Shown here: positions 24,837 through 61,250 of the stretch, piece by piece
Position numbering within the stretch: the first letter of the stretch is position 1
How the letters are laid out: every line of letters starts with the position of its first letter
Origin: Bolinopsis microptera
Lineage: Eukaryota; Ctenophora; Tentaculata; Lobata; Bolinopsidae
DNA length: 64,000 bases
Reading direction: 5' to 3'
NCBI RefSeq assembly: GCF_026151205.1
Contig: NC_087079.1
Coordinates: 4,359,230 to 4,423,229 of the forward strand
Notes under the pieces: generated by a model
The model's database searches: none
What the model was told of the DNA's origin: nothing
Seen by the model: the letters and a program-made list of their open reading frames with translations, nothing else
Position numbers and translations under genes: made by a program

Positions 24837-27800
24837 CTATAACTGGTCGATTAGTCTATTTGGGGGCCTGACTACCCTCCCTGATCTGGTGGTTGTAGTT
24901 GTTGAGGGTTCTGTAGGTGGGGATGATGGTGCCAGCTGTGGAGCTGATGGGGCAAATACTGCACTCGTTGGCATGTTGAAAACATTGTTCGCAAATTGTT
25001 GCCGATCTATCAGTGGTAAGTTACGCTGAGGGAGGCTGTTATCAACATAAACTTTTCCTGCTGGTGCCTGAGGGTTTTGTACCGGAACTGAGCTACCCAT
25101 AACCATAGAGGCATCCTGCTTCGTGCCTGCAGGCTGAATCTGGTCGTGATGAACTACCTTGGATTTGCCGGAAACGAAGTTTACAATTCCCCAGCAGTTT
25201 TTTCCAATCTTCTTGGAGATCTGGAAAATTTCATCCCATATTGGATTCATCTTGGGATATTCACCATGGTTTCTTTTTAGAAGAACCCAGTCCCCGACCT
25301 GGTATTCGTTGACGTTAGTAGTCTTGTTAGCCTGTTTCTGATAGCTTAGTCGAGACTCCTGCTTGTTGAGAGGGATGTTTTGCCTAACCAACCGTGTGTC
25401 TTGAGCTTCTTTTTGATTAACACCCAACCTATTGTCGATTGGCAAGTTTGCTGACACTCCGTAAGCAGCCTCGAAAGGAGAGAATTTCGAAGATTTGTTT
25501 TGAGTGTTATTAAACATCAATATAGCTTCTGGCAGGAGCTCATCCCATTAAGTAATAGGGATGCCTCTAGATAGACACATAGATCGCAAAATTGTTTTGA
25601 GGGACCCAATAGCTCTTTCTGCACTGCCATTACCAGCTGGATGATATGTAGAAGATCGGAGCTTTTTGATTGCAAATTCTTCACACAGTTGTCTAACTTT
25701 GGTGCCATCGACATTACTTCCCTGATCTGATTGCAGTAATTTAGGAAGCCCATAGTAGCTGAACCATCTGCACCATAATGCGTCCACGACTGTCTCAGCC
25801 CGTGCATTAGGTAAAGCTATTGCTGTCATCAGCTTAGTAAATATATCTGTCACCAAAAGAAAGCTTCCGTTGCCTCTCCTGGACACAGGCATGGATGCTA
25901 GATCCATAGAAATCATCTCGAAGATCTTCTCAACCTCTCTATGATCCTGCACTGGTGCTTTAGGCTTAGGTCCATGTTTGCACTGTGTACATGTTCTACA
26001 GTTAGAAACAAAGGACTCCACTTGTTTTCTCATACCCCTCCAATAGAACCTTTCAGATAGCATCAGGCAGGTATTATCGATTCCTGGGTGGCCTTGTCCG
26101 TGGTATTCTTGGATGATCTTTGGGGCAATCCCCTGAGGTACAATGACTCGGGAGCCTTTGCATAGTAGGTTATTAGAGACTTTCAGGTTCAAGAATTTCC
26201 TGAATAAGCCTTTATCCACGATCTTGTCCTGACGGAGTGATTCTATTGCTTCAGCAATATCTTTGTCTCTCATCTGAGCCTCTCGGAGCAGATTCTCCCC
26301 TAACACAAACACTGAAGGGTCTTCTGATGGGGCATCACTCCCCATTATTCTGCTCAAGTAATCTGCTTCCTGGTTGTCCGCTCCCTTCAAGTACTTGATG
26401 CAGTAATCAAGATTCTCTAACTCTAATATCCAACGGCCGATTTTCCCTCTGGGATCTTTCTGTCTATGAATGTTCCTCAGTGGCTCATGATCCGAATAGA
26501 ACGTGATCTTTTCATAGCAAAAAGCTTTCCACTTTCTGCTAGCACTTATGATACCATAAAGTTCTCGCTCTGTAGCAGACCAGTTCTTTGTATTCTTCTG
26601 GTTAAGGGTCTCGGAGTGATAACCAATGGGTTTGAACGAACCATCCCCATCATACTGCCCAAGCACACTCCCCACTGCAATCTTAGAAGCATCTGTTCTT
26701 ATCACAAATGGCTTAGACCAATCTGGTATGAACAGCGAAAGAGCAGCATGAAAGGTGGTCTTTAACTTGTTAAATGCAGCTTGTTCTTGACTTGTCCAAA
26801 CAAATGGGACCTTTGACGATGTTAGGCGATTCAACGGGGAACATATCACAGAGTACCCATCAATAAATCTGCGATTGTAATTGGCTAAGCCCAAGAAGCT
26901 TTGTAACTCTTTCCTTGTAGTGGGAGCCGGGAATTCTTTAATCTTAGCCATGTTTTTGGTTCCTGGTTTCAGGGTTTTCCCATCTATCCTGAATCCTAAA
27001 AATTGGATCTCTTGGTACGCAAACTCACACTTGTCCCTTCTCAGTGACATGTTGTTGCTCTCCAGCACTTGCAGCAGGATCTCAAGGGTATTGATATGTT
27101 CTTCCATGGATGTGGAGCACACAATCAGGTTGTCAACATACGCATCTAGGCCGGTTGCACCCTTTTCCTTGCACTCCTCTACAATCTTGTCCATACACCT
27201 CTGAAACGTTGCCTGTGCATTCTTCAATCCAAACGGCATTCTCTTAAACTGATACTTTCCCCGGGGTATACTTAATGCTGTTTTGTTACGATGACTATCA
27301 GAGATTGGCACTGTCCAGTAGCCACTTGCCAAATCCAGCTGAGAAAAGAGGGTACACCCAAAGGCCTCATCTACCAGCTCCTCAACAGTGGGCAAAGGGT
27401 AAGTATCCTGCACCGTGTTACGATTAACCATTCTGAAATCGACAACAAATCGTTTTGAATTGTCATCCTTCGAGACCAGTAGGGGATTACTGTTGAAAGG
27501 TGAGGAAGATGGTTCTATGATATCATGTTCTATCATTTCTGTGACCTGTGTGTCAATCTCCTTTGACCATTTTGCTGGAATTCTCCTTATTTTGCTCCTA
27601 ATTGGGCGGTCATTGATACTCTTTATTTCGTGTGTGGTAGCAGAACTGCACCTGGGTGCTCTTGGATTTTTAGCAAACACCTCTGGGAAACTTTCCAAAA
27701 TACTGCAGAGTTTCTCTCTTGCCCCAGATGGCAAGTTCGGGTTAATGTCATGTCCTCCCTTGTCAGCATTTAGAAAGAATATCCATTTCTCTCCCAAACG

Positions 27801-28136
27801 AACCTTTGAATTCTTCCAATCAAACTCAGTGCTGGAAAATTGACTTAAGAAATCTCTACCCAAGATAACCATTTCTTGGTTGGTACTAAGGTTGGTTTCG
27901 TGCAGCCATACCCTGTAGTTCTGGCTTTTGTCAGAGGAGAATCTTATGTTGTATTGTGTCTTCGGACCAATCAACTGTCTGCCCCCAATCCCCTGCACGG
28001 AAGTACTGCTCCCATTTTCAATCAGCACTTTATTAGTAGAAATGATAGAGATTTCTGCCCCACTATCTACAAGAAACTGTCTAGGATGCCAGCTCTCACC
28101 TAACTCAATCTGTCCTTCAACTTTGCTGTCATATAG
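24837..28136 (-). pseudogene. pol: Pol: protease-RT-RNase H-integrase, with an internal stop
   Basis: The frame is continuous with gag after its TGA. The protease active site FLVDSGAEISII is at about 28050-28085. RT follows (FSQLDLASGYWTVP; the metal-binding box reads AYVDNLIV instead of YxDD at about 27130). Ty3-type RNase H comes next (IRTDASKIAVGSVLGQ). Integrase has an HHCC zinc site (H-x3-H ... CRTCTQC) and a DDE core (SMDLASM, QSDQGSN, NGSAERAIG). A TAA at 25548-25550 interrupts integrase in the original frame; beyond it WDELLPEAILMFNNT and the C-terminal GPY-like region continue to 24837. Two lesions make this copy non-autonomous. Confidence 0.92.
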
Positions 28137-28742
28137 TCATCTTTTGTCATGGTTGTTCCGCTTTGGAGGGAACTTCTTATTCCTAGAGGTTCTCTTGGAG
28201 GGGCAACTCTCCTCATCGTGTCCTTTTCCACCACAACAGCTACAGACTCTTTGATAACATGTTGCTTTAAGGTGACCTGTCTTCTTACAGATATCACATA
28301 TTGGTCTGTCTTTTTTTTCAAACTTACGATCTGACTGGACAGCATACATTTCAGTATCCTCCTCATCTGTCACTTCTAACCGTGAACGAAGCTGATCCAC
28401 CTCCTTCAGTAACTCCCGAGCCCATTGAGGTACCTGCTCTTCTTGCTCTACCGGGAACGCAAATGTTTCACTAGTCGAAGCCTCTGAACTTGCTGAATTC
28501 TTTTGAAGCTTTTCCATACAGTCTTTGAAAAAGCTGGCTACACCGGCTGCATCTAGTTCGCTTTTGATTTTATCTTTCTTACACTCAAACAGCTTCTTCC
28601 CCCCGGGTACGTTTGTCAGAAACCGCATGATGAAGACATCAGATGGGATCTTAGCACGCCTGGCTAACTCGTCCAGTTGGAAGAAATAAGACCGTATCCC
28701 ATCCATCGAAGTATTAACCGGCAGCAAGTTGAAAAATGTCAT
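28137..28742 (-). CDS. gag: Gag with two CCHC zinc knuckles
   Basis: The segment has 201 codons and ends in TGA. It carries two nucleocapsid-type knuckles, CDICKKTGHLKATC and CSCCGGKGHDEESC, near the C-terminus, followed by a basic tail (KKFPPKRNNHDKR). The N-terminal region is alpha-helical in character. The stop is TGA followed by CTA, and the pol frame continues in the same register, so Pol could be made by readthrough rather than frameshift. Confidence 0.85.
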   Translation of the reverse strand: MTFFNLLPVNTSMDGIRSYFFQLDELARRAKIPSDVFIMRFLTNVPGGKKLFECKKDKIKSELDAAGVASFFKDCMEKLQKNSASSEASTSETFAFPVEQEEQVPQWARELLKEVDQLRSRLEVTDEEDTEMYAVQSDRKFEKKDRPICDICKKTGHLKATCYQRVCSCCGGKGHDEESCPSKRTSRNKKFPPKRNNHDKR

Positions 28743-44579: not shown

Positions 44580-45089
44580 TGAAGGATTATGTCGCCAAAA
44601 TTTGAAAATAAGAATATTTCAGAGCACGCACATTCAATATTAAATCACCTATGTTGTTTATTTCGAACATGCTGGAGGCCCTATTTTTTTCAGATTACTG
44701 TAAATAATTGATTGTTGCATCTGATCTGAAAATATGAGATGATACGGATTTGAAATAACGAGGTTATCAAGCATTTTGATTTTGTTTATCTTGTTAGCAA
44801 AATTGATTGATCGATTATGCGACTCGATACGGCGTAGGGGTCACCTAAACTACTAATCTACTCATTCGACAGAACCTCTAGAATACCACTTAAGAACAGA
44901 CACAAGAATGATAACCTTCCCTTCGTTATCCTACACATCGGTAAACCAAGAGACCTCAGCATCACCCCACTGAGGTTCAACCCAGCTGTCGAGGTCACTG
45001 AAGTATGTGATGTCAGCCTCGGTAACTACAGTTTAATCACTGTGTTCCCCGAGGCGAGTCAAAATCTACACTTGTTCTTTTCCCCCGAG

Positions 45090-47843
45090 ATGAACTCCCT
45101 CAGTCGCAAGGACGAGCAAGTCCTGATAGTGCCCTTCATCGAAAAGAATGTCGACATGCAGACCTCAGCCGAATTACCGATTCAGATCATGCAGCACAGC
45201 AACCCAGCTGCACCAGCCTCAATCGAGGATATTGCTACAACGAAAGTAGAAATCTCACTAGCGAAGGTTGAATCCCTGGGGATAGAGGAGGACTACCTTG
45301 CTACGAAGGAAGTCACCACTGCCGAGCCTAGCACCACCAAGCTCAAGTCACCGCTATCTGAATCGCCAGATATGAAGCCGTTGGATGTGCAACTCGACCA
45401 ACCGGTGATTCCGCTACACGAGATAGACAATACTGCTGCCGAATCACTGCCCCTAAGAATATCAAGCTGCAGTCAGAAAAGCGAAGATACGCAGAAACAG
45501 ACAACTAAAGCAACCCCGGACGACACCAGCCACAATGAGTCCTTCGCCGATGAAGAAGTGGACCACACTGATCCCAGTCTCGACAAGGGCTCCTCAATCA
45601 CTCTGAAATACATCACCCTTGATCTCCTGAAGAGAGCAGCCAATTCTAACAAGAAGTCTTCACTGTCCACTTTGATGACATCTCTCGGACTCAAGGGTAG
45701 CAACAATGTCTCTCTCAACAAAAAGAAACTCTGTGACCTACTCGAAACTTGTGAGTCTACAGGAAGCAAGAACACGGTGAAATTACTCACTCATCTCATC
45801 AATAAACTCGAAGAAACAGTGATCAGAATGGAACTCCTTGCCAATTATCTTCCCTTGAGCCTTTCAGCCCAAGAAAGAAAAAAGGCTCTGATCTCGTTTT
45901 GTAGTAATCAGTGTAGTGGCAACAGTAACGCGATTAAACTAGTTTTCGAAAATCCAGGTGAGGATGATCAGAGTAATTCAACCCGCAACATCTTACAGTT
46001 GCACAACACACCGTCTCTCCGTGACCAACCGAGCCCACACGATTCGGGCGACTACGTAACCCCTGATGGACCTCTGTCTGGTAACACTGATACCAAATTT
46101 CAATTTGGTACTCCCAAGGATCAATCTTGCACTAGAAGTGCGAAGAAGAAAAAAAAGGGAAAGTCGCACAGAAAGAAAAAGGAAAAAAAGGGTAGCAACA
46201 ACACCTCCCCTCGCGTCCCCCTTGGTCCTCATCAGAATTCTTTAGTCGCACCTGATACCGGGAGCCTATTATCCGCTAACGGGCCAACCACTGAAATTAA
46301 CGACGACATGGAAACTGCGGGCGATATGCCCCTCAAGGGTCACCTAATAAGTACCGAATGCAGTCAATGCTCTGAGTTAAAGGCGGCGGTGACAGTGCTA
46401 CAAGACAGTATTATTACGCTTAAAGAAGAGATACTGCAACAAAAGGCAATCTCTGACCTGATCATCTCGTCACCTACTGCCTCAGACAAAAAGCTGGAAG
46501 TCTTAGTCGCGAAAAAGCTCAGTCCGATTGAAGACAAAGTGAACCAACTAAGAGCTGACCTCAACCTACTTAGAGAGGCAGTAGATGAACAGAATAATAC
46601 TCTGAACCTAGTGGCCAACACGAGGACTCAGTCCTCTCCAGACTTAAGAGCTGAGCTTGCTAACTGCTTCAACAAGTTGGAAGCAACGAATATCGCTAAT
46701 AGAAGGCAGTTCGAAACACTTGAGCTAGGCCAAGACAATCTGAAGAAAGCAGTCAAGAGTGTGGCAAACACTGCTAAGAACCAGTCACAAGCCACAGCTG
46801 AAGAGCTAAAGGGTGAGCTCAATCTAGCCTTTCAGTCATTTGAAACTGTAAGTTCCTCAAATAGGACCCGAATCGAGGCACTTGAAGTAAACCATGAGAG
46901 TCTGACGCAGGCCCTCACCAGTTCACCACAGCCTCCGGCGAACCACAAGCCCGCCCGGCGTGACACGCCGGCCTCTGTCGATGATACGAACAAGGAAAGC
47001 GAACAGGGTATCCTGTGGTCCAAGATCGTTGAGAATGGAGGCTCCGAGACGTTCACTACATCGAACAAGAAGAACAGCAAAAACCACAAAGAGAATGTAC
47101 CTGTACCAGCAACCAGACAGGACAACCGCAGTGAGTCAAAACATTCAGAGACCACCGCATCCGAGGCACAACCTAATCAACCGAGTCGTGAAGCCAAGGA
47201 GAGTAGAAACAAATCTTCCAGGCGAATAAGGGAAAGTTACAGACAGCACACTGTTCTTCTGATCCACGATAGTAACTTTGATCACTTCAACCCTAAACTG
47301 TTCAATAGTCAATTCAATGTACACTGCCTCAAGTTTGACAGCTATGAGGATACGACTAAAAAAACAAAGCTATTGAACAGCACCATCAAACGACTCAAGC
47401 CCGAATGCATATATGTTCACACGGGGATAAATGACCTTCTCAAAAAGAAATCTGGTCTCGTGAGTATCGTTGAGGAGTTCTCCGAGCACCTGATGAACAC
47501 AACCAAAGCCCAAATATGCTTCTCAGGACTGATTCCATCGAGCAACGATAAAGCCCTCAATGAGAGAATCAGCATCGTCAACAAAGATGTTGAAGACTAT
47601 GTGAGCTGGCTCCACAAACACAAGCCGGTTGCAAAAGATAGGATCTTTACCTTCCAAAATGACAGCATCGGTGACCAAAACTTTTACACAAGTAACGAAG
47701 GGTTCAAGCTGAGAGAACGAGGTAAAAAAATGCTGTGGGTGCGCCTCCGTGAAGGAATGAGGAAAACAATGCGCTTACCTCGAGTAAGCTACCAACCAAA
47801 GGACAGATCCAGACGCAGCACGAACAGGTTTAGAGATGAATAG
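45090..47843 (+). CDS. LINE-A ORF1, coiled coil plus divergent SGNH-like C-terminal domain
   Basis: About 917 codons from the first ATG (MNSLSRKDEQ); the open frame extends upstream to 44838. The N-terminal half is acidic/serine-rich. A strongly basic patch (KKKKKGKSHRKKKEKKG) lies near 46145-46190 and a heptad-rich coiled coil at about 46370-46920. The C-terminal ~190 residues resemble the SGNH esterase domain of CR1-type ORF1 proteins: VLLIHDSNFDHF for block I and YVHTGINDLL for the GxND block. Where a catalytic D-x-x-H is expected the sequence reads YTSNEGFKLRERG, so esterase activity is doubtful. Presumed RNA chaperone / RNP component. The stop codon lies within ATGAATAG shared with the ORF2 start. 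Confidence 0.8.
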   Translation: MNSLSRKDEQVLIVPFIEKNVDMQTSAELPIQIMQHSNPAAPASIEDIATTKVEISLAKVESLGIEEDYLATKEVTTAEPSTTKLKSPLSESPDMKPLDVQLDQPVIPLHEIDNTAAESLPLRISSCSQKSEDTQKQTTKATPDDTSHNESFADEEVDHTDPSLDKGSSITLKYITLDLLKRAANSNKKSSLSTLMTSLGLKGSNNVSLNKKKLCDLLETCESTGSKNTVKLLTHLINKLEETVIRMELLANYLPLSLSAQERKKALISFCSNQCSGNSNAIKLVFENPGEDDQSNSTRNILQLHNTPSLRDQPSPHDSGDYVTPDGPLSGNTDTKFQFGTPKDQSCTRSAKKKKKGKSHRKKKEKKGSNNTSPRVPLGPHQNSLVAPDTGSLLSANGPTTEINDDMETAGDMPLKGHLISTECSQCSELKAAVTVLQDSIITLKEEILQQKAISDLIISSPTASDKKLEVLVAKKLSPIEDKVNQLRADLNLLREAVDEQNNTLNLVANTRTQSSPDLRAELANCFNKLEATNIANRRQFETLELGQDNLKKAVKSVANTAKNQSQATAEELKGELNLAFQSFETVSSSNRTRIEALEVNHESLTQALTSSPQPPANHKPARRDTPASVDDTNKESEQGILWSKIVENGGSETFTTSNKKNSKNHKENVPVPATRQDNRSESKHSETTASEAQPNQPSREAKESRNKSSRRIRESYRQHTVLLIHDSNFDHFNPKLFNSQFNVHCLKFDSYEDTTKKTKLLNSTIKRLKPECIYVHTGINDLLKKKSGLVSIVEEFSEHLMNTTKAQICFSGLIPSSNDKALNERISIVNKDVEDYVSWLHKHKPVAKDRIFTFQNDSIGDQNFYTSNEGFKLRERGKKMLWVRLREGMRKTMRLPRVSYQPKDRSRRSTNRFRDE

Positions 47844-50800
47844 CCCCCCTAAGATGAGACACTCACTCAAACTCATGAGCTGGAACATCAACCACCAGCG
47901 TGACAAATTTGAGGGTGTCAAATTCGAAATTGACGAGGTCCAGAAGCTCATAGCTGGCCACGATATCGTCTGCCTACAAGAAACTAAAGGACAGGTTTCT
48001 ATGCGGGAATTCAAATGCTTCAACGCCAACAGATCGGATAGCAACTCAGGTGGCGTGTGCACAGCGATCCGGAAGCACTTGGCTGCAGGAGTAGTCAGAG
48101 TTCATTTTTCCAAATGCGACGACATACTCATCATAAAGCTTAAAGCCAAATACTTCAACCTTGACAAAGATCTGAATCTTATCAATGTGTACGACTCGCC
48201 AGCTCATGGCTCATACAAGAAACGAATGCGTTCCAAAATGGAACAATATACAACCACTTGTGAGCACTTAGAAGAGTGTCTATCAAATATCCCCGACTCC
48301 GAAGATGCTGCCATACTTGGTGACATGAACGCGCGGACCGGCACATTGAACGACTTCCTTATACCATGCGAGTCTAGGGACCTTCAAGTTGAACTCGATC
48401 CTCCCCAGCATTCTATATCTCCTACTGAGGTAGCCTCTAGAAACAACCAAGATCGGATTCTCAACTCCAACGGCAAACCCTTCATTGAGCTACTCCAGAC
48501 AACTGGAATGATAATCCTAAACGGAAGGACAATTGGGGACATATTTGGCAGTCCAACTTGCATTCAAAGAAATGGAGTAAGTACGGTCGACTACATTTGC
48601 GTGTCCCACAGCCTCCTTCATCGGGCAAGGTTCTTCAAAGTTGGTGACCTCACCCCTTATTCTGACCACAGACCAATATCCACCACTTTAACCACTAACA
48701 TAAGGAACATTGTGATGGCTGGCGACATCTCGAACGAAATGGAGCTCAAATTCGCATCGATCCCGAAGCCATTCAAGTGGACCAAAGATGCCTGCTCTGG
48801 ACTTGGTACCACAGAAAAATTCAAGTCAGCCCAGAACACCGCTCAATTCAAAGAAAAAGTTGATTCTCTTCTTCAAACTGATATTTCCTCCCCTGACGAC
48901 ATTCGCAGTTTCAATGAAATTGTGATTGCCACCTTTACTAACCTGGCAAGTCAAGTTACCACCCAGAAAAGTGGAAAGCCCAGTACTAACAAAAACAAAT
49001 GGTTTGATTGGAGTTGTAGGCATGCTAAACGATTAGTCTGTAGAGACGAAAGAGCCAAGAATAACACCCACATCGATCCTATGCTCGTGGAATCCAACCG
49101 AGCAAGATTTTACCTCCGTAAGAAAGAATACAGGGCACAAACACGAGCTAGAAAGGGAGCTTACCTTTACAAACTTAACGAGAAAATCAACCTCAGCAAC
49201 AACATCAACTGGGCTGCTTTAAAAGACCTCTCGTCCGCTTGCAAGGACCCCGATACATTCGACATATATGACCTGATCGCATTTCACAAGTTCTTCAACG
49301 ACCTATACAATCAGAAGTGCAAGGACCCCTCGCACGGTGGACTACAAACGAACACTTCGACCAACGAAGCTGGTGAACAGGGAACCGAGTACCACCTCGA
49401 GCCATCAGTCGAACTTGAAAAACTTAACACAGAGTTTACTATCCAAGAACTGGAGAAAGTCACCAATAAGCTCCAGAATAACAAAAGCGTTTCATGTGAT
49501 CTTATCTCCAACGAGATGCTCAAGAGCTCCAAACTCGGTCTCCAAAAAGTCCTTCTGAAACTATTCAATGGTTGCCTAACGCAAGGAATCTACCCCTGGA
49601 ACTGCTCAATAACTACCCCCCTACACAAAAAGGGGGACAAGCAGAACCCCGATAACTATAGAGCAATCACAGTCGGAAGTTGCCTTGGAAAACTCTTTGC
49701 ATCCCTCCTCCTTGATAGGCTGATCGAATTCCGTAAAGTCGTCTGTCCCGACTTCCCTCACCAACTCGGATTCAGAGCTGGTGCCCAGTGCTCTGACCAT
49801 ATCCTGACCCTTACAACGATCATCGAGAAGTATACAAAGAAGATGAAGAAGAAAATATTCGCTTGCTTCGTGGACTATCGTAAGGCGTTCGACACAGTCT
49901 GCAGGGAGGCTCTCATGTACAAACTCAGTAGACTTGGTATCGGAGGAAGCTTCTTCTCTTGCCTCCAGAACATGTACAGCAACTCAGTTACCCGTATCAA
50001 ACTGAGCAAGAAGCTGTCGGACACCATCGATGTCACCATTGGTACCGAACAGGGACATCCAATGTCGCCGGAGCTCTTCAAGGTATACATTTATGACCTC
50101 TCCATTAGACTAGCAGCTCTTGAGGACTTGTCAATTCCAGAACTGAACGGCTTCCCGGTCAGCCATCTTCTGTGGGCAGACGACCTGATACTTTTGGCAC
50201 TCGACGCCAAAAGCCTGCAGAAACAACTTGATTGCCTGCACGAATTTGCAAGTGAATGGGAACTGTCAATTAACATCGACAAAACCAAAATCATGGTATT
50301 CAACTCGAGCTCTCGTTTGCTGAAGTGCTCCTACGGGTTCAAACTAGGGAACCTGGACATCTCATCGGCCAAATCTTACTGCTATCTAGGCATTCAATTC
50401 AGTCTCAACGGTTCATTTAAAGGTGCCATGAACGAACTGAGGAAAAAAGCACTAAGAGCATTTTTCTCGATCAGACGCATGGTCGACACTCGAGCATTAA
50501 CAACAAAAACCATGCTCAAGCTTATAGACAGCCTCGTTAAACCAGTCGCTACGTACGCCTGTCAAATATGGCTACCGTGTACAAAAATGGCAAAGGAGAT
50601 GGCTTGCGCTGATGGTTCAAGACAGAACCTTGCTAGAGCTGCAACAAAGGACGCACTTGAGACAACACACCTGAAAATGCTGAAATGGGTGCTCGGCTTA
50701 CACAAGAAAGCTAACAACAACTTCTGTTACGGAGATACGGGCAGGTTACCATGGGCCCTGTCGGTACTACCACAATGCCTGAGATACTTCGACAGATTGT

Positions 50801-51510
50801 CTCAGACATCACCCGACGTGAGCAGCGTCAACTTTCTTGTACATCAGACATTCCAAGAGCAGAAGAATCTAAACCTCTCTTGGTATAAGACCTGGAACTC
50901 GATCGCTCAGTCTGAATCCAAAGCGGCCAAATTCGCTCGATCCGACCAACACAGAGCAGAAGGAACGACCTCAACTGCACATGGAAATTTGGTTGATCAC
51001 TTTGTAAAAGATTGGAGAACAGATTTAGCATCCCAAAAGAAAATGCAATTTTACTGCACTATCAAACAGGTATTCGGAGAGGAGCAGTATCTCAATCTAA
51101 AGAATAGTCAATGTCGCATGCACATAGCAAAAATCCGCTCCAGTAGCCATGACCTTCTTATTGAGAGAGGGAGATACACAAAAGAAACTGGAACGTGGAC
51201 GAGAGCCTGCAGATTCTGCTGCAACAAGGATAACGTTCAAGGCTTAGAATATCTCCCCTTTTTCGAAGGAACAATCATTGAAAATGAAGAACACTGCCTC
51301 ACTGAATGTCCAATGTACCACTCAGCGAGACTCTCACTGTCGGAAAACCTTAAGAGTCTTTTGCTGCTCAAGGAATACGGAGCTATCATGAATTCTGCCC
51401 ATGTGCAAGAACTGGGCAAATTCCTTTGCAACTGTCACCGCATCAGGAACCCGAAAAAGACGCCAATACTGCCTGTCACCCCATCAGGACTACCAACTCA
51501 ACAGACATAA
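47836..51510 (+). CDS. LINE-A ORF2: AP endonuclease and reverse transcriptase
   Basis: 1224 residues with no interruptions. An APE-type endonuclease occupies about 1-290 (LMSWNINHQRD, VCLQETKG, AILGDMNARTG, YSDHRPIST). RT follows at about 560-850 (CFVDYRKAFDTV, GTEQGHPMSPELF, LLWADDLILLALD, the last being a WADD box). A thumb/C-terminal region comes next (KPVATYACQIWLP) and a zinc-type tail (CRFCCNKD ... EEHCLTECPMYHS near 1124-1160). It nicks target DNA and copies its RNA by target-primed reverse transcription. The start ATG overlaps the ORF1 stop by 8 bases. All catalytic positions recognisable by eye are present, so it may be active. Confidence 0.93.
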   Translation: MNSPPKMRHSLKLMSWNINHQRDKFEGVKFEIDEVQKLIAGHDIVCLQETKGQVSMREFKCFNANRSDSNSGGVCTAIRKHLAAGVVRVHFSKCDDILIIKLKAKYFNLDKDLNLINVYDSPAHGSYKKRMRSKMEQYTTTCEHLEECLSNIPDSEDAAILGDMNARTGTLNDFLIPCESRDLQVELDPPQHSISPTEVASRNNQDRILNSNGKPFIELLQTTGMIILNGRTIGDIFGSPTCIQRNGVSTVDYICVSHSLLHRARFFKVGDLTPYSDHRPISTTLTTNIRNIVMAGDISNEMELKFASIPKPFKWTKDACSGLGTTEKFKSAQNTAQFKEKVDSLLQTDISSPDDIRSFNEIVIATFTNLASQVTTQKSGKPSTNKNKWFDWSCRHAKRLVCRDERAKNNTHIDPMLVESNRARFYLRKKEYRAQTRARKGAYLYKLNEKINLSNNINWAALKDLSSACKDPDTFDIYDLIAFHKFFNDLYNQKCKDPSHGGLQTNTSTNEAGEQGTEYHLEPSVELEKLNTEFTIQELEKVTNKLQNNKSVSCDLISNEMLKSSKLGLQKVLLKLFNGCLTQGIYPWNCSITTPLHKKGDKQNPDNYRAITVGSCLGKLFASLLLDRLIEFRKVVCPDFPHQLGFRAGAQCSDHILTLTTIIEKYTKKMKKKIFACFVDYRKAFDTVCREALMYKLSRLGIGGSFFSCLQNMYSNSVTRIKLSKKLSDTIDVTIGTEQGHPMSPELFKVYIYDLSIRLAALEDLSIPELNGFPVSHLLWADDLILLALDAKSLQKQLDCLHEFASEWELSINIDKTKIMVFNSSSRLLKCSYGFKLGNLDISSAKSYCYLGIQFSLNGSFKGAMNELRKKALRAFFSIRRMVDTRALTTKTMLKLIDSLVKPVATYACQIWLPCTKMAKEMACADGSRQNLARAATKDALETTHLKMLKWVLGLHKKANNNFCYGDTGRLPWALSVLPQCLRYFDRLSQTSPDVSSVNFLVHQTFQEQKNLNLSWYKTWNSIAQSESKAAKFARSDQHRAEGTTSTAHGNLVDHFVKDWRTDLASQKKMQFYCTIKQVFGEEQYLNLKNSQCRMHIAKIRSSSHDLLIERGRYTKETGTWTRACRFCCNKDNVQGLEYLPFFEGTIIENEEHCLTECPMYHSARLSLSENLKSLLLLKEYGAIMNSAHVQELGKFLCNCHRIRNPKKTPILPVTPSGLPTQQT

Positions 51511-54490: not shown

Positions 54491-54586
54491 CTGAAATATA
54501 AGCCTTATTATTATAATATTAATAATATAAATATTGTATAATAAAAAAATTAGGAAATCAAAATATTCTATTATATATACTACTGG

Positions 54587-54770
54587 ACAATTGACCCCCG
54601 ACAATTGACCCCCGACAATTGACCCCCGACAATTGACCCCCGACAATTAACCCCCCGACAATTAACCCCTATTATGTAACTGGCGTCAATTGTCTCGAAA
54701 TCTAGGGTTTAGTACGACAATTGACCCCCCGACAAATGACTCCCCGACAATTGACCCCCCGACAATTAAA
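54587..54770. repeat. CAATTGAC-box element, partial
   Basis: Runs of GACAATTGACCCCC units on both sides of a linker (CGAAATCTAGGGTTTAGTAC) that is nearly identical to the linker in the 7-kb element. There is no GGGTCA core and no inverted right arm. Confidence 0.85.
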
Positions 54771-54989
54771 ATAAATAAATAAAATAAATAAAGTCAATTT
54801 TTACAGCACAGCAATATATATCTAAATATCAGATCCTCTGTAATCATAATGTATAAAAAAAGGAGCTTTTCTCTGTGCTGAAGGATGAATCAAGGCAGAT
54901 CATGGTTCTGTTAGCAGGCCACCCTAGTTATGGACAATACATATATATAAAATAATTAAATTATAATTTTAAAATTGTGTCAAGATTGA

Positions 54990-55125
54990 ACTAAAACATA
55001 ACTCAGGGTAAAATAGACGTATTCCCTTCGTCAAATTAACTATTTACAATACTAAACTTAAACGAACTCCGGGTAAAATAAACGTAATCCCTTTGTCAAA
55101 CTTGCTATTTACAATAAGTTAATAA
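54990..55125. repeat. ~65-bp tandem duplication downstream of LINE-B ORF2
   Basis: Two imperfect copies share GGGTAAAATA(G/A)ACGTA, TCCCTT(C/T)GTCAAA and CTATTTACAATA. It probably lies in or just beyond the 3' UTR of LINE-B. Confidence 0.7.
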
Positions 55126-55383
55126 ATTAATACGGTTGAAAATTATTTCATATTCAATAACAATGTAGCATCAATATAATTGATACAAATGAGGAGCATA
55201 CAGTGAGAATTGCACATAACAGGAGGACTGGAGGTATGGAGCAATAATGATTGACAGTGCACCTTTCCACTGATGTTCCTAATTTCCTGTAATAGCTTAA
55301 TAGGCATGGAAATACTTTGATTGCAGGGGATAGATTGGATTCACTTATGTACTGAGATAACTTAACCGAAATAACATAACTGC

Positions 55384-58314
55384 TTAGATACATTGGCTAG
55401 TGTTGGGTGGGATCATGAATTTATCGTAAGAGTTATCCCCTTGGTAATTCTCATCAGTTAGCAACATATTCATAAGAGTTTCTTTGTATAACTTAGAAAA
55501 TTTCTTAACGTCGTCACACTCTCTAAGGGACTTTGGTAATATGTTCCAGGCCTTAGTTCCTAGATAGTTAAACTCCTTGTGAGATCTTGATTTAGGAGTA
55601 TAAAGATTGCAGTTTTCTGCCTCACGTGATCCACCAGAAATATACGAGAATTTCCCGATAAAATGCTTTGGACATGTTTCATTGATTATACGGTACATAT
55701 ATGAGCTAAGATGAACCTGTCGTCTCAAATGGAGAGGAAGCCATCCCATATTTTTGTATACATTAACCGACCTCTCTCTGATGTTTACATCTAGGGCTAT
55801 TTTAGCAACCTTTTTGTACATGATATCTAACTCTCCTAGTCGTTTTTTATATGTTCTTGACCAGATGGTGTCTAAGTAGTCAAAATGTGGCAACATAAGT
55901 GCATTAGCAAACATCTTCCTGAACTTAAGAGGGAGAAGTTTTTTTGATCTATACATAGCACCAATTCTTTTGGATATCTTTTTCTTAATGTTATCAATAT
56001 GTTCATTAAATGTCAATCTGCTGTCAACTATAAGTCCAAGGTACTTATGGGATTTAGTTTCACAGATTACCAAAGTAAGGTCATCACAAATTTCAACAAG
56101 GATGGCATCAAGGTTAGGCTTAGAGTCAAGGATCATTAGTTTTGTTTTTTCATTATTCAGGGATAGTTTATTAGCCTGAAGCCATCTGATAACTAATTTC
56201 AACTCTTGTTTGATGTTACCATAGTTTCCTCTAGATATATTGTCAAAATATAATGCACCGTCATCAGCAAATAGATAAGGTTTAGAAAATAGGCATGCAT
56301 TAGGCAGGTCATTGATAAAAATGCTGAATAGAATTGGTCCTAATATACTTCCTTGAGGCACTCCAGAGTTCAATGAATGTAAACTGCTTATCCTACTCCC
56401 AACTCTAGTTTGCTGTAATCTATCTGTGAGGAAGCTCCTAAACCAGCTCAATGCAGTATCTTTTATTCCATAATGCTTCAGCTTTTGAATGAGAATATCA
56501 TGGTTAACAGTATCAAATGCCTTTCTGATGTCCAGGAAGATAATTGCAGGATGCTTGGCACTGTTCTTAGCAGTAAATATACGATCAAACAGATCTAACA
56601 TGAGATAAGTTGTAGAGTGATCTTTACGGAAACCATATTGATGCTCTGAAAGTATTCCCTTTTCATCAAGATATTGAGTCAGTTGGGAGTTCACACAAAA
56701 TTCGATGCACTTTCCAAGAATCGGTAAAATTGAGATTGGTCGATAATTACTAGGATTCTCAGTATCACCATCCTTATGGATTGGGGTGACTTTTGCAACC
56801 TTGCAGCTGTTTGGCATGATGCCACTGGATAAACTCAAATTTACAAGATGTGTTAATGGAGCAATAAATGCAGGTAAAATTTGTCTAAACACTCTCAATG
56901 GTATATGATCATTAGTGGATTTGCTACAAGGGATACTTGCCACATAGTCTAAGATATTGGACTCAGTTATTTCAGTAAAGCTATTCAAGCTGGTCTCGTT
57001 GTCAATCTGCTCATTTTGTAGATAAGATAGAAATTCATTTTCATTTTCCAGCTGCACTTCTGCTTGGATCTTTGGACCTATTTCAGCAAAATATTTATTG
57101 GTGGTTTCAGCATCAAGATTGTTATTGATATTGTTAGCTTTAACAGGCAGATTTGATGCTGTCTTTATCGTTTTCCATACACCCTTAAGATCATTCATGG
57201 CACACTTGGCTTTCAGTTCTGTTGCTAAGTTAGTCTTCCTATTAATTCTAGACAAATAGGTTGAATAGTTTCTCTGCCGTTTATATGCCATCCATAATGA
57301 GTCACATTTATTACAGTGTATAGGACCATTTGGATGTATACGTCTGTTCTTGTTGTGTGTTAAAAATTTACGGTAAAGTTTCCCTTTCAATTTCTTACTT
57401 TCTAAAAATTCTGGAGATGGCTTATGGATGTAATCACTATGGCACTTAATTTGTTTAATTGGACAGAAGTGATCATAGTAGTGATCAATATGTTCGTTTA
57501 AACCATCAACTGCATCATTCAGACTAGTTGAATCTATTATTGGTCTATAATCACAGGTTTCCAAAAATTCTTTAAGAGCAGTAACATTCATTTTGCTGTG
57601 ATCTCTTATTAGTAACTTCTTGAATTTTGAGGCCTTATGCACATTGAAATCGACAATGAACTTTACGACCTGATGATCTCCTATACAATCATCAAGGACT
57701 TTGCAGTCAAGAAACTTGGAGTAAGTGTTTGTTATGACAACATCGATTGTGGTCTTTGTGATTCTGTTTCCTAGTTTAGCAATGCGGGTAATATCCTGAA
57801 CTACCTGTACCATTCCAAACATTTTCATTGTAATGTCTAATTTCTTATAGTTCATACTGCTGATGTTGTTTTGGTCTACATTTACATCACCCAGCCAAAT
57901 AACATTCTTACTTCCTATACTCATCATGCAGTCTGTCATATAATCTAAAAATTTGTCAAGAGGACTAAACAACTCAGATCTGTAGAAACAGCAGATGAAA
58001 ATATTGCAATCTGTAAGATGGATCCAAATAGCCTCGATTTGGTCATATTGCAAAACTAAGTTTAGTTGAATCATTTTAAACTTTATGTGCTCACTGATGA
58101 GAATGCCACATCCCCCATGACCATTGTCGTTAGGACGGTCTTTGCGGATAAAAGTAAAATTCTTGGGTAGGTTTAGACTGGCTGAGTCAATATCCGACTT
58201 AAGATTTGTTTCATTCAGGCATAAAACATCTAATTTCTCTTTCCAGATTAGATCTTGGATTTCAAGACATTTTGGCATACCTGTTAGTCCTCCCTGCATG
58301 TTGCAATGTCCCAC
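55384..58314 (-). CDS. LINE-B ORF2: AP endonuclease and reverse transcriptase
   Basis: About 976 residues. The endonuclease occupies about 1-230 (GHCNMQGG, DVLCLNETNL, NVIWLGDVNVD, CIGDHQVVKF). RT follows at about 500-760 (PIHKDGDTENPSNYRPISI, AIIFLDIRKAFDTVNHDI, LNSGVPQGSILGPILF, PYLFADDGALYF). The C-terminal LINE thumb region reads ANALMLPHFDYLDTIWS and FNYLGTKAWNILPKSLRE, as in CR1-type elements. The 5' start is unclear: the frame is open from a TAA near 58410, the first in-frame ATG is the fifth codon after the GTG at 58314 (in CNMQGG), and several plausible residues precede it. Reinitiation or non-AUG start is possible. Enzyme activities are predicted intact. Confidence 0.92.
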   Translation of the reverse strand: MGHCNMQGGLTGMPKCLEIQDLIWKEKLDVLCLNETNLKSDIDSASLNLPKNFTFIRKDRPNDNGHGGCGILISEHIKFKMIQLNLVLQYDQIEAIWIHLTDCNIFICCFYRSELFSPLDKFLDYMTDCMMSIGSKNVIWLGDVNVDQNNISSMNYKKLDITMKMFGMVQVVQDITRIAKLGNRITKTTIDVVITNTYSKFLDCKVLDDCIGDHQVVKFIVDFNVHKASKFKKLLIRDHSKMNVTALKEFLETCDYRPIIDSTSLNDAVDGLNEHIDHYYDHFCPIKQIKCHSDYIHKPSPEFLESKKLKGKLYRKFLTHNKNRRIHPNGPIHCNKCDSLWMAYKRQRNYSTYLSRINRKTNLATELKAKCAMNDLKGVWKTIKTASNLPVKANNINNNLDAETTNKYFAEIGPKIQAEVQLENENEFLSYLQNEQIDNETSLNSFTEITESNILDYVASIPCSKSTNDHIPLRVFRQILPAFIAPLTHLVNLSLSSGIMPNSCKVAKVTPIHKDGDTENPSNYRPISILPILGKCIEFCVNSQLTQYLDEKGILSEHQYGFRKDHSTTYLMLDLFDRIFTAKNSAKHPAIIFLDIRKAFDTVNHDILIQKLKHYGIKDTALSWFRSFLTDRLQQTRVGSRISSLHSLNSGVPQGSILGPILFSIFINDLPNACLFSKPYLFADDGALYFDNISRGNYGNIKQELKLVIRWLQANKLSLNNEKTKLMILDSKPNLDAILVEICDDLTLVICETKSHKYLGLIVDSRLTFNEHIDNIKKKISKRIGAMYRSKKLLPLKFRKMFANALMLPHFDYLDTIWSRTYKKRLGELDIMYKKVAKIALDVNIRERSVNVYKNMGWLPLHLRRQVHLSSYMYRIINETCPKHFIGKFSYISGGSREAENCNLYTPKSRSHKEFNYLGTKAWNILPKSLRECDDVKKFSKLYKETLMNMLLTDENYQGDNSYDKFMIPPNTSQCI

Positions 58315-58569
58315 TGCAAGCTTTTTGGCATGGTATGAAACTGTGATTTTACTAATGCACGGGTTAATGCAAGAACTGCTGTGAGAGCATGAAAATTTTC
58401 CAATTTATGCTGCTATAAACTTGTCAGAATAAGATAAATTGCAGAACTGGCAAATTTGTATGAGATAATAACAAAACTTTCTAAAACTTCAATAAACATG
58501 AGGAACAATGTGTAATTATCCCTTATCTAGAATCTAGATGAAATAAATGTTAACAATCTTTCTGAAAAT

Positions 58570-60444
58570 TCAAACTTGCTTATGGGCCCAATACTTCAGA
58601 AATTTAGCAAGTCGAATAACACCGCTTGTATTGAGGTGACAGTTATCAGATATTTTTGCAGATGGTCTGGCAAAATAAAATTCTTTCCTGAATCCACTTC
58701 TATTATAGTTAAATAAATTATGGGTGCTAATGTAATTAAAACAAGAATCTTTGCTACACATATCCTTAATAACCTCATTCAGCTCTGCCACAACATCATT
58801 GCGGCCTTTTGTACTCCTGGGAAGAATATTGAGAACATTAATTGTTGCATTCGGATACACTGACTTGAGATAATTTAAGAGATTACTAATGTCACCCGCT
58901 GCATCCTTCAGTGACTTTGAGCCAAAATAGACTGTGTTCACATTATTAGTTCCTGTCATAATATAAATAATAGATGGGGATGGAACGGAGTGTAGGTCAG
59001 TTTTTAGTTTATTTAACATTACTTTGGCATCAGCCCCAGGATAAAACAGTTTACTAGCACTAACAGTGGACGATGATAACTTGTCCGCATCAAGAAACCT
59101 GAACATAGAGCTGCTTATGAATAGGACAGACTTTTGTGAAGCTTTGGCTGGCTGTTTGCAAACTGAGAGTGCAGGTGAAGAAGAGTCTGTCAGTTTGTGT
59201 CCTGAATGAGGGATGGGTGGGGGCGGTGAACGCAGACCAAACTCAGTTGACTGAGTGATCCTAGGGGGCTTCATCAGTCTTAGGGTGATGCTGATCCGGG
59301 GTTCATCACACATTTCGTCTGGCAGTATCTCATGTTGAAAGTCAGCCTGAGACAATTTGGACATGATGAAGACATCTCCATGCTGAAGCTGCACAGAGCC
59401 CACAACTTCATTGCTGCCGTTTGATCTAATTTGCAGTGTTCTCGTCGCACCAAGTGAAATGGTTACAATATCAGAGTGTTCTACAATACATGATTCAGAA
59501 TCGCTATGAGCTGGCATGAACTCTGCTCCAGTTTCATATAGATTGACGAGAATACTATTGTGTCTGAAATTGGGTAATATCACATTAATGTAGGAGCTGA
59601 GTTTAGCAAGGTAGGAATCATTGTGTACACTTTTTGGGTCATGTGTTGCACCTGAATACTCATAGGGAAAGTCACCAAAATAAACCGATTTCCTGTTTTT
59701 AAAACCGTGACTGAACTCAAGTTCTTCCATTAATAGATCAAGTGAAAATTTAGAGAATGGACCATCATCTAGTAGGGTAACTGGTTTCACTGGTGATGGG
59801 GAACAAGTTACAGATATATTCATTGGCCCCGGTGTTATAGGATCGTAGACAGGGGCAGGGACCAAGTTTGGATATTTGTCTCTGGGCTTAGGGGTGTTGA
59901 TCCGTGATTCACCAGTAGCAGTAGATACAGGGAGATCAGACACATCATCCTCGTCTGCCATAACCTCGTTAACAACAATCTCACTGATAACAATCTCGTT
60001 TCCAACAACCTCCTGTGGAACAACCTTGTCCACGACATCGTTGTCAACAAACAAACTGTCCGATACAACATCTTCCACAACAATGTCATCTACATCAAAC
60101 GCTTCTACTTGATTGATAACAACGTGTGACTGAGGGGTAATGGTTATGATCTCACATTCAATCTCCTCTGATAAGTTCGGCAGCAAATTTTCACACTTAA
60201 AACTCTGTTCTTGTATTTGAGTTTGATCTGATATGAGACTATCATTGTACTGAGCAATGAGATCACTAGTTCTGATAATTTCATTCAATAAAGACAACTT
60301 TTTTTCTAAAAAGTCAATCTTGATGTCTTTTGACAGACAATTGTTACAGTTCTCTGATTTTTCAGACTGGAATGAAAAGTTCAAATGTTCTAAAGGGCGC
60401 TCACAAAAGTGGAGACTAATGTCTGAGCTCTGATTATTTGACAT
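58570..60444 (-). CDS. LINE-B ORF1: AlkB-like dioxygenase domain plus SGNH esterase domain
   Basis: 624 residues. Residues 1-90 hold a short coiled-coil-like segment (FLEKKLSLLNEI). 95-170 is very acidic/valine-rich and 180-235 proline-rich. About 247-392 matches the AlkB 2-oxoglutarate/Fe(II) dioxygenase pattern: SILVNLYETGAEFMPAHSDS with H313-x-D315, VTISLGATRTLQIR, LQHGDVFIMS, then FQHEILP with H371 and EPRISITLRL with R383 and R389, the residues that bind iron and 2-oxoglutarate in the family. About 436-624 is an SGNH hydrolase: FISSSMFRF, MTGTNNVN and D600-x-x-H603 in DNCHLN, so its catalytic pattern looks intact. Known AlkB proteins remove alkyl or methyl groups from nucleic acids; here protection or demethylation of element RNA is inference. 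Confidence 0.82.
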   Translation of the reverse strand: MSNNQSSDISLHFCERPLEHLNFSFQSEKSENCNNCLSKDIKIDFLEKKLSLLNEIIRTSDLIAQYNDSLISDQTQIQEQSFKCENLLPNLSEEIECEIITITPQSHVVINQVEAFDVDDIVVEDVVSDSLFVDNDVVDKVVPQEVVGNEIVISEIVVNEVMADEDDVSDLPVSTATGESRINTPKPRDKYPNLVPAPVYDPITPGPMNISVTCSPSPVKPVTLLDDGPFSKFSLDLLMEELEFSHGFKNRKSVYFGDFPYEYSGATHDPKSVHNDSYLAKLSSYINVILPNFRHNSILVNLYETGAEFMPAHSDSESCIVEHSDIVTISLGATRTLQIRSNGSNEVVGSVQLQHGDVFIMSKLSQADFQHEILPDEMCDEPRISITLRLMKPPRITQSTEFGLRSPPPPIPHSGHKLTDSSSPALSVCKQPAKASQKSVLFISSSMFRFLDADKLSSSTVSASKLFYPGADAKVMLNKLKTDLHSVPSPSIIYIMTGTNNVNTVYFGSKSLKDAAGDISNLLNYLKSVYPNATINVLNILPRSTKGRNDVVAELNEVIKDMCSKDSCFNYISTHNLFNYNRSGFRKEFYFARPSAKISDNCHLNTSGVIRLAKFLKYWAHKQV

Positions 60445-60679
60445 AGTTATATTATCAAGAGTTCAATGTTCAGAAGCACAATAAACACTGTAAACGCAAT
60501 ACCTTCAGTCCAGATAGTAGTTTTGATGAGAATAGTTTTGATGAGAAGGAGGAGGATGAGTAATCTTCAAGTACACTCACAGCAGTCCTTTGCACGTCAA
60601 AACTTACGCTCGTCTATCATATCTCATACCTCACTCAATAAATGTAATAGATTTGTAGTGTTGTAATTAGTTTAAAACA

Positions 60680-61250
60680 ATTGACCCCAATGTAATTACA
60701 CTGGGGTCAATTGATCGGGTCAGGGTCAGGGTCAGGGTCAGGGTCAGGGTCAGGGTCAGGGTCAGGGTCAGGGTCAGGGTCAGGGTCAGGGTCAGGGTCA
60801 GGGTCAGGGTCAGGGTCAGGGTCAGGGTCAGGGTCAGGGTCAGGGTCAGGGTCAGGGTCAGGGTCAGGGTCAGGGTCAGGGTCAGGGTCAGGGTCAGGGT
60901 CAGGGTCAGGGTCAGGGTCAGGGTCAGGGTCAGGGTCAGGGTCAGGGTCAGGGTCAGGGTCAGGGTCAGGGTCAGGGTCAGGGTCAGGGTCAGGGTCAGG
61001 GTCAGGGTCAGGGTCAGGGTCAGGGTCAGGGTCAGGGTCAGGGTCAGGGTCAGGGTCAGGGTCAGGGTCAGGGTCAGGGTCAGGGTCAGGGTCAGGGTCA
61101 GGGTCAGGGTCAGGGTCAGGGTCAGGGTCAGGGTCAGGGTCAGGGTCAGGGTCAGGGTCAGGGTCAGGGTCAGGGTCAGGGTCAGGGTTATTTGTATTAA
61201 ATTAGATTGTTGTGGGGTCAATTGTCGGGGGTCAATTGTCGGAGGTTTGG
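60680..61250. repeat. (GGGTCA)~79 satellite in a CAATTGAC-box element
   Basis: The left edge (ATGTAATTACACTGGGGTCA then ATTGATCGGG) matches the 7-kb element. About 79 uninterrupted GGGTCA hexamers follow (about 60715-61188). The right edge carries inverted boxes GGGGTCAATTGTCGGGGG. All three frames per strand are open through the array, giving spurious Gly-Ser and Thr-Leu dipeptide frames. Confidence 0.95.

Follow-up and report, generated by a model that had tools for sequence, protein, structure and literature searches.

AlkB-type 2-oxoglutarate/Fe(II) dioxygenases of selfish elements were known before from plant RNA viruses and from one plant lineage of LTR retrotransposons. In the viruses—plus-strand members of the Alphaflexiviridae, Betaflexiviridae and Closteroviridae—the domain lies inside polyproteins, and demethylation activity of the viral enzymes is cited in the accessible part of a report on orchid elements (PMC9289625). 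According to the same part of that report, Ty3/Gypsy elements of Phalaenopsis orchids encode an ALKBH5-like AlkB-family enzyme with its catalytic residues kept, in a separate ORF and with no SGNH domain mentioned. Mobile 2OG-Fe(II) dioxygenases of a different kind, TET/JBP, are described on fungal DNA transposons and Helitrons in the available excerpt of PMC12730594. A further relevant system is the type IV ORF1 of CR1/L2-like LINEs, e.g., zebrafish ZfL2-1, in which (as set out in the accessible sections of PMC3905857 and PMC4120745) a C-terminal SGNH domain is preceded by a zipper-like segment and followed by an endonuclease-reverse transcriptase ORF2. The ORF1 types given in these sections comprise RRM, PHD, CCHC, zf/lz, coiled coil and esterase, but no AlkB, and the word alkb occurs in neither paper. 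The zebrafish LINE esterase binds lipids and not oligo-A RNA, and the esterase-type ORF1 proteins of RepBase are described as having no structural RNA-binding domain (PMC3905857, same sections).

Here we describe a LINE of the ctenophore Bolinopsis microptera that has the type IV layout and carries, in addition, an AlkB domain within ORF1. The element thus resembles the plant viruses in being a selfish, RNA-based element with an AlkB domain, of similar fold in a BFVD search, and it resembles the orchid elements in encoding such an enzyme from a retrotransposon. It differs from the latter in that the carriers are LINEs and a Helitron, the domain is ALKBH3/2-like, and it is fused to SGNH in ORF1. 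Among the titles and abstract starts listed in searches of the open-licence PMC literature, none was on AlkB in a LINE or Helitron, and a report elsewhere is possible.

The element and its genomic locus

The window—the whole stretch of 64,000 nucleotides analysed—corresponds to C8:4359230-4423229 of a 264,652,675-base genome in 232 contigs. A first-pass annotation had reported an AlkB–SGNH fusion at 58570..60444; this interval covers ORF1, and comparison of copies revealed a considerably larger element (Table 1). Five other copies of the same family (family A, see below) are 99.0-99.7% identical to it over about 5.9 kb, their ends coinciding to about 13 bases in 5/5, and the LINE was recently active, to judge by these near-identical copies. 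Its assignment as a LINE draws on an ORF2 with endonuclease and reverse transcriptase, a 3' repeat tail and dispersed near-identical copies, the endonuclease match in the window copy (1.8e-4, 21.7 bits) lying below the Pfam cut-off of 24.5 and that of RVT_1 reaching 5.6e-37. The ORF2 frame is open slightly farther upstream, with no ATG ahead of a CNM motif, so that the start given in Table 1 is a candidate; ORF1 begins with ATG and stays open for 624 codons. Membership of the CR1/L2 clade (Jockey superfamily) is suggested by the esterase-type ORF1 alone. Near the start of the 5' leader we noted AACACTAC, which by eye also occurs in families B and D. The copy sits between inverted CGACAATTGACCCCC/GGGGTCAATTGTCG minisatellites, and such minisatellites, with GGGTCA hexamer arrays, occupy window positions 6954-7513, 54586-54767 and 60717-61246.

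Table 1. Coordinates of the AlkB-bearing LINE in the window and of the AlkB-bearing Helitron elsewhere in the genome
Feature	Position	Strand	Basis or remark
Whole LINE copy	54769..60679	-	About 5.9 kb; ends set against 5 other family-A copies
5' untranslated leader	60445..60679	-	Junction print-out, by eye
ORF1, 624 aa: N-terminal part, AlkB, linker, SGNH	58570..60444	-	Single open frame and Pfam
C-x-x-C pair, then leucine-rich, short-coiled-coil-like stretch, ORF1 residues 33-66	60247..60348	-	Coiled coil by eye only
AlkB (2OG-Fe(II) dioxygenase) domain, residues 227-394	59263..59766	-	
H313-x-D315, first two expected Fe(II) ligands	59500..59508	-	In 28/28 copies, families A-D
H371, third expected Fe(II) ligand	59332..59334	-	In 28/28 copies
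R383-x5-R389, expected 2-oxoglutarate/substrate arginines	59278..59298	-	In 28/28 copies
SGNH esterase domain, residues 437-624 (S446, G470, N500, D600, H603)	58573..59136	-	Profile, family alignment
ORF2, endonuclease and reverse transcriptase	55384..58314	-	Open frame and Pfam
3' tail of (TTTA)n-type repeats	54767..54792	-	Tail of this type also seen in the 5 other family-A copies
Helitron: SGNH, Pro/Ala-rich repeats, AlkB, Helitron_like_N, PIF1 helicase	L056:3383-7999 and L066:2-4498 (C10:16871000-16883500)		

An AlkB domain and an SGNH esterase in one ORF1

The first-pass annotation had named H313, D315, H371, R383 and R389 as lying in the order and spacing of AlkB enzymes and had proposed a profile search, a structure prediction and a comparison of genomic copies as checks. 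All five residues were found at these positions in the sequence read-out, with the SLGATR and HGDVFIM blocks in between, and the role of R383/R389 is one that we take over from AlkB. The profile search gave PF13532 (2OG-FeII_Oxy_2) over residues 261-389 at E=3.6e-18 and 66.9 bits against a cut-off of 31.2, the domain also being detected in 8/8 rows of the family alignment. Likewise, the predicted structure of the domain has the double-stranded beta-helix fold of AlkB. The domain therefore belongs to the AlkB family by profile, by its H-x-D...H triad with a distal arginine pair and by fold—with demethylase activity as a prediction—and profile, fold and conservation together rule out a chance or motif-only resemblance. 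The alignment with ALKBH2/3 implies that the predicted Fe ligands would cluster.

Among solved AlkB relatives, ALKBH2/3 are the closest to the domain in sequence. In single-sequence searches ALKBH3 (1.1e-15) preceded ALKBH2 (2.9e-7) and E. coli AlkB (5e-4); in profile comparisons the E-values were 2e-20, 5e-16 and 1e-6, respectively, and ALKBH5, at 5e-3, trailed all three and so is not the nearest relative. ALKBH3 and ALKBH2 are also the nearest solved relatives of the predicted structure in fold. Identity to the human enzymes is about 27% for ALKBH3 and 23% for ALKBH2, the domain here being part of a transposon protein.

The SGNH domain that had been proposed to follow AlkB is likewise borne out, with S446, G470, N500, D600 and H603 intact in 28/28 copies. 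With the S, G, N and D-x-x-H residues kept throughout, ORF1 falls into type IV (esterase). The single-sequence match is weak (PF13472, E=4.2e-5, 24.5 bits, below the cut-off of 32.9), and both of the GDSL/SGNH Pfam models that match ORF1 stay below their cut-offs; across the family alignment, SGNH was found in 8/8 rows at E<=0.1. A profile match to the PAF acetylhydrolase-like structure 2hsj was obtained at 4.6e-5, and when the esterase part was searched as a single sequence, a PAF acetylhydrolase subunit matched at 0.0016 and 4c1b, the ORF1 esterase of the zebrafish LINE, at 0.007. Little weight attaches to the single-sequence structure model of this part, which is poor (pLDDT 51.3), its best Foldseek rows being esterases or hydrolases, mostly SGNH/GDSL (E 1e-4). 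In the N-terminal part, C33, C36, L46 and L53 are invariant across the 8 rows of the family alignment.

Four families and an exchangeable ORF1

Searching the genome with ORF1 yielded at least 81 matches, a lower bound given that 71 of 988 candidates were scored. Among the rows listed, 23 (the window included) form family A, at >=98% identity over >=580 residues; 14 form family B, at 41-44%; 13 form family C, at 50-53% over AlkB and 38-40% in the esterase rows; and five form family D, at 36-37%, the remaining listed rows being fragments. We compared 20 stretches (A 5, B 6, C 5, D 4). The order C-x-x-C/zipper-like segment, AlkB, SGNH is common to families A-D in the alignment, and an ORF2-side open frame of >=900 aa lies downstream in 11/20 stretches, with a shorter, broken or no such frame seen in the rest. 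Related copies thus carry AlkB in four families, and a private insertion of the domain is ruled out. In the A-B comparison no part of ORF1 is as well conserved as AlkB (55% identity, against 40% for SGNH and 30% for the N-terminus). AlkB also exceeds SGNH in the A-C and B-C comparisons, whereas pairs with family D show no such advantage (37-39% vs 37-40%).

Families B and C differ in a particular way. Their ORF2s share 98.3% amino-acid identity (dS 0.038), whereas their ORF1s are 46-67% identical depending on the segment, with synonymous divergence above 1.3 where estimable, and DNA identity rises from about 70% to 98% within the ORF1-ORF2 spacer. Taken together, these three features indicate that one ORF1 was swapped as a unit, probably via template switching, and the pair shows ORF1 as a tradable cassette. 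The exchange resembles the reticulate ORF1 evolution described in the accessible part of PMC4120745. In one such pair of stretches (L045 and L047), the ORF2 and 3' end are common (98.2% DNA identity), the AlkB-SGNH ORF1s differ and the breakpoint lies in the spacer.

Purifying selection on both enzymes

The claim that AlkB is under selection had initially been based on a single open frame, which is weak ground, but it is supported by a test on variants among copies. Variants were counted within families from 28 copies (A 13, B 6, C 5, D 4) chosen from stop-free matches, a choice that may favour intact copies and for which the rest of ORF1 serves as internal control. AlkB had 17 nonsynonymous and 22 synonymous variants (pN/pS 0.204, p=1.3e-6) and SGNH had 26 and 32 (pN/pS 0.21, p=1e-8); the rest of ORF1 had 55 and 25 (pN/pS 0.612, p=0.03). 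Both enzymes of ORF1 are under purifying selection. Y303, H313, D315, H371, R383, R389, S446, G470, N500, D600 and H603 never vary in the 28 copies, and position 301 is Asn in families A-C and Thr in D. The signal in AlkB is uneven, being weaker in B and D than in A (nonsynonymous to synonymous 1:6 in A, 12:10 in B, 0:2 in C and 4:4 in D). Leaving out one copy (L046), which has Ser in place of Pro at 260 and intact catalytic residues, changes pN/pS to 0.176 for AlkB and to 0.855 (p=0.35) for the rest of ORF1.

Codon models were run on 8 ORF1 rows (two copies per family A-D) and 9 ORF2 rows, a subset of the copies. For ORF1 they gave omega values of 0.137 for AlkB, 0.088 for SGNH and 0.141 for the N-terminus, synonymous sites being largely saturated in this set; ORF2 had 0.071. 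The value for AlkB is not below that of SGNH and about equals that of the N-terminus. In the pairs for which AlkB dS was estimable, omega of AlkB was 0.12 between B and C (dS 1.8) and 0.15 between A and B (dS 2.5, near saturation).

AlkB in other transposons, host genes and viruses

A genome scan with PF13532 gave at least 151 matches, with 150 of 587 candidates scored; among the matches listed, all but one were stop-free, in open frames of 142 to 3388 aa. Ten places outside families A-C were read as a sample. One (L058) is a relative of family D. Two others (L060, L061) encode a PHD-like finger, below Pfam cut-offs, then AlkB and an esterase region, and a further one (L063) combines AlkB with an esterase region, its PHD-like cysteines, seen by eye, lying at the start of the ORF2-side frame; the ORF2s of these three are 28-41% identical to one another and 23-35% identical to those of families A-D. 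In LINE E (L059), AlkB stands at the front; behind it come weak matches of coiled-coil type and then an esterase-like end. The endonuclease of LINE E shares 42% identity, over 125 residues, with that of the second LINE in the window, an element with no match to AlkB in its ORF1. On its ORF2 side LINE E is disrupted (L067 with L059, C9:7325200-7331800), and at that place the other strand has a reverse-transcriptase-like stretch.

Moreover, one AlkB domain belongs to a Helitron with a frame of 3388 aa (L056/L066, Table 1), which contains GDSL_2 (5e-6, below cut-off), AlkB (2.9e-21), Helitron_like_N (5e-23) and PIF1 (4e-22); the esterase here precedes AlkB, the reverse of the LINE order. In a frame just upstream, a 2A-like SGDVETNPGP motif was seen by eye. 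Another place (L062) resembles the N-terminal part of this Helitron, the part compared, with an AlkB 91% identical. The AlkB domain thus occurs in several transposon families of one genome. Across this sample, the esterase was seen by Pfam, below cut-off, in L056, L058 and L061, and by eye in L059, L060, L062 and L063. The remaining places (L057, L064, L065) are shorter frames resembling host ALKBH genes. In one of them (L064, C2:9635200-9638200), a 505-aa frame with an RG-rich N-terminus contains an AlkB 50% identical to human ALKBH3.

The H, D, H, R and R residues are kept in 11/11 aligned transposon rows, including 7/7 beyond families A-D, and D, L058, F (L060) and H (L063) have Thr or Ser in place of the Asn of N-x-Y. 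The host genes L057 and L064, like many viral rows, have a longer stretch ahead of the first conserved Arg, so that base recognition may differ.

An unrooted tree was built from 11 transposon AlkBs, the three host-like genes, human ALKBH3 and 18 viral, phage or plasmid AlkBs, with ALKBH2 and ALKBH5 outside its sampling. All transposon AlkBs except that of LINE E form one clade with support of 100, on long branches and separate from both human ALKBH3 and the host-like genes. In AU tests, neither a single origin of all transposon AlkBs (p=0.13) nor a LINE-only clade without Helitrons (p=0.23) was rejected. The viral alignment took in 11 of 19 viral loci; L021 and L023 were left out as lacking a stop-free frame across the match, and L012, L018, L022, L024, L025 and L026 as apparent repeats of other loci by contig names or match figures. 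In two IMG/VR contigs (L016, L019), AlkB lies inside viral open frames of more than 1150 aa that fill the fetched stretch. No relative of ORF1 or ORF2 was found in the viral-contig searches. A prokaryote match (L001) was discarded as due to chance; it covers 24 residues, and the frame that holds it lies opposite one of 434 aa that by eye is pectinesterase-like.

Possible function of the AlkB domain

ALKBH2 and ALKBH3 act on m1A and m3C, methylations that block Watson-Crick pairing and stop reverse transcriptases, and Helitron transposition passes through single-stranded DNA. As the first-pass annotation proposed, the AlkB domain could serve repair, demethylation or evasion of defence. Because it is nearer to ALKBH3 and ALKBH2 than to ALKBH5, m1A/m3C-type substrates are favoured over m6A, and this nearness in sequence does not fix the substrate. 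In the mechanism that we prefer, and to which we would give an even chance of being correct, ORF1p would multimerise on the element RNA, its AlkB domain would grip single-stranded nucleic acid and oxidatively strip Watson-Crick-face methyls (m1A, m3C) that would halt reverse transcription, and the esterase would fasten the particle to lipids. In favour of it are the AlkB profile match, ALKBH3 and ALKBH2 as nearest solved relatives, the retained iron-ligand and arginine residues and the low pN/pS of AlkB; against it are the absence of any advantage of AlkB over SGNH in pairs with family D, the codon-model omega of AlkB, the weaker constraint on AlkB in B and D, the Thr or Ser in N-x-Y and the short stretch ahead of the first conserved Arg. 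Helitrons would profit from the same chemistry; both they and LINEs, in which one long RNA is copied, would gain from the clearing of lesions or marks. Since a Helitron carries AlkB too, the need may be one common to elements with single-stranded intermediates, and our observations suggest that AlkB-carrying elements may have to keep their genetic material clean by themselves. Additionally, a nucleic-acid-gripping AlkB would fill a gap, since the esterase-type ORF1 proteins of RepBase are reported without a structural nucleic-acid-binding domain, whereas the ORF1 described here has AlkB, with binding predicted. The domain thereby offers an answer to how proteins of this type could engage RNA.

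Other readings of the domain were weighed against this mechanism. That AlkB is mainly a nucleic-acid-binding module taking the place of an RRM, with catalysis secondary, would accord with the RepBase survey just mentioned (PMC3905857, accessible sections), but the iron-ligand and arginine residues, invariant in 28/28 copies and 11/11 transposon rows, are more than binding needs, and we consider this unlikely. Similarly improbable, in our view, is removal of m6A by AlkB as a way for element RNA to escape the m6A readers of the host, which has been proposed for the orchid Gypsy element: the orchid AlkB demethylates m6A in vitro and m6A effects on mammalian LINE-1 are cited alongside (PMC9289625, accessible part), but that domain groups with ALKBH5, whereas the one described here matches ALKBH3 and ALKBH2 far better, ALKBH5 being distant in the profile comparison, and occurs also in a Helitron, a DNA element. 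The m6A route is thus possible but less likely.

Less probable still is an anti-silencing role, in which AlkB would oxidise methyl marks on donor-site or target-site DNA as TET/JBP might on fungal DNA transposons. ALKBH2/3-type enzymes are not known to act on 5mC, and the domain matches AlkB profiles rather than TET/JBP. The presence of TET/JBP dioxygenases on fungal DNA transposons and some Helitrons (PMC12730594, available excerpt) finds a parallel in the AlkB of our Helitron, but the same excerpt notes no retrotransposon with TET/JBP. Finally, the host-ALKBH-like frames of this genome could have been the source of a neutral passenger; we regard this as very improbable, given a pN/pS of about 0.2 for AlkB against 0.61 for the rest of ORF1 and the retention of the domain across families 36-53% identical to the window ORF1 and in other transposon lineages.

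Returning to the demethylation mechanism, a wider proposal is that an ALKBH2/3-like demethylase, usually paired with SGNH, is a swappable module of several LINE lineages and Helitrons, by which elements would answer methylation pressure with an eraser of their own; this is tentative, and we lean somewhat against it. If true, elements with single-stranded intermediates face strong and sustained base methylation, either from damage or from methylation of transposon nucleic acid as a host defence. Finding AlkB in LINEs, under selection, and in a Helitron of one genome makes the methylation of transposon nucleic acid, by damage or by host defence, a directly testable question.

Other features of the window

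The second LINE of the window (45042-51510, plus strand) has a long ORF1 of 933 aa and an intact ORF2 of 1224 aa. Its ORF1 gave no Pfam match at E<=0.01, AlkB included, has an SGNH-like region by eye and matches the ORF1 of the AlkB LINE with a BLASTP E-value of 0.089. LTR-retrotransposon frames (reverse transcriptase, RNase H, integrase) lie at 24837-28742 on the minus strand, with a frame upstream that by eye is cysteine-rich and zinc-knuckle-like, and a single 1211-aa frame at 9722-13357 on the plus strand contains LDL-receptor A and 7TM domains.
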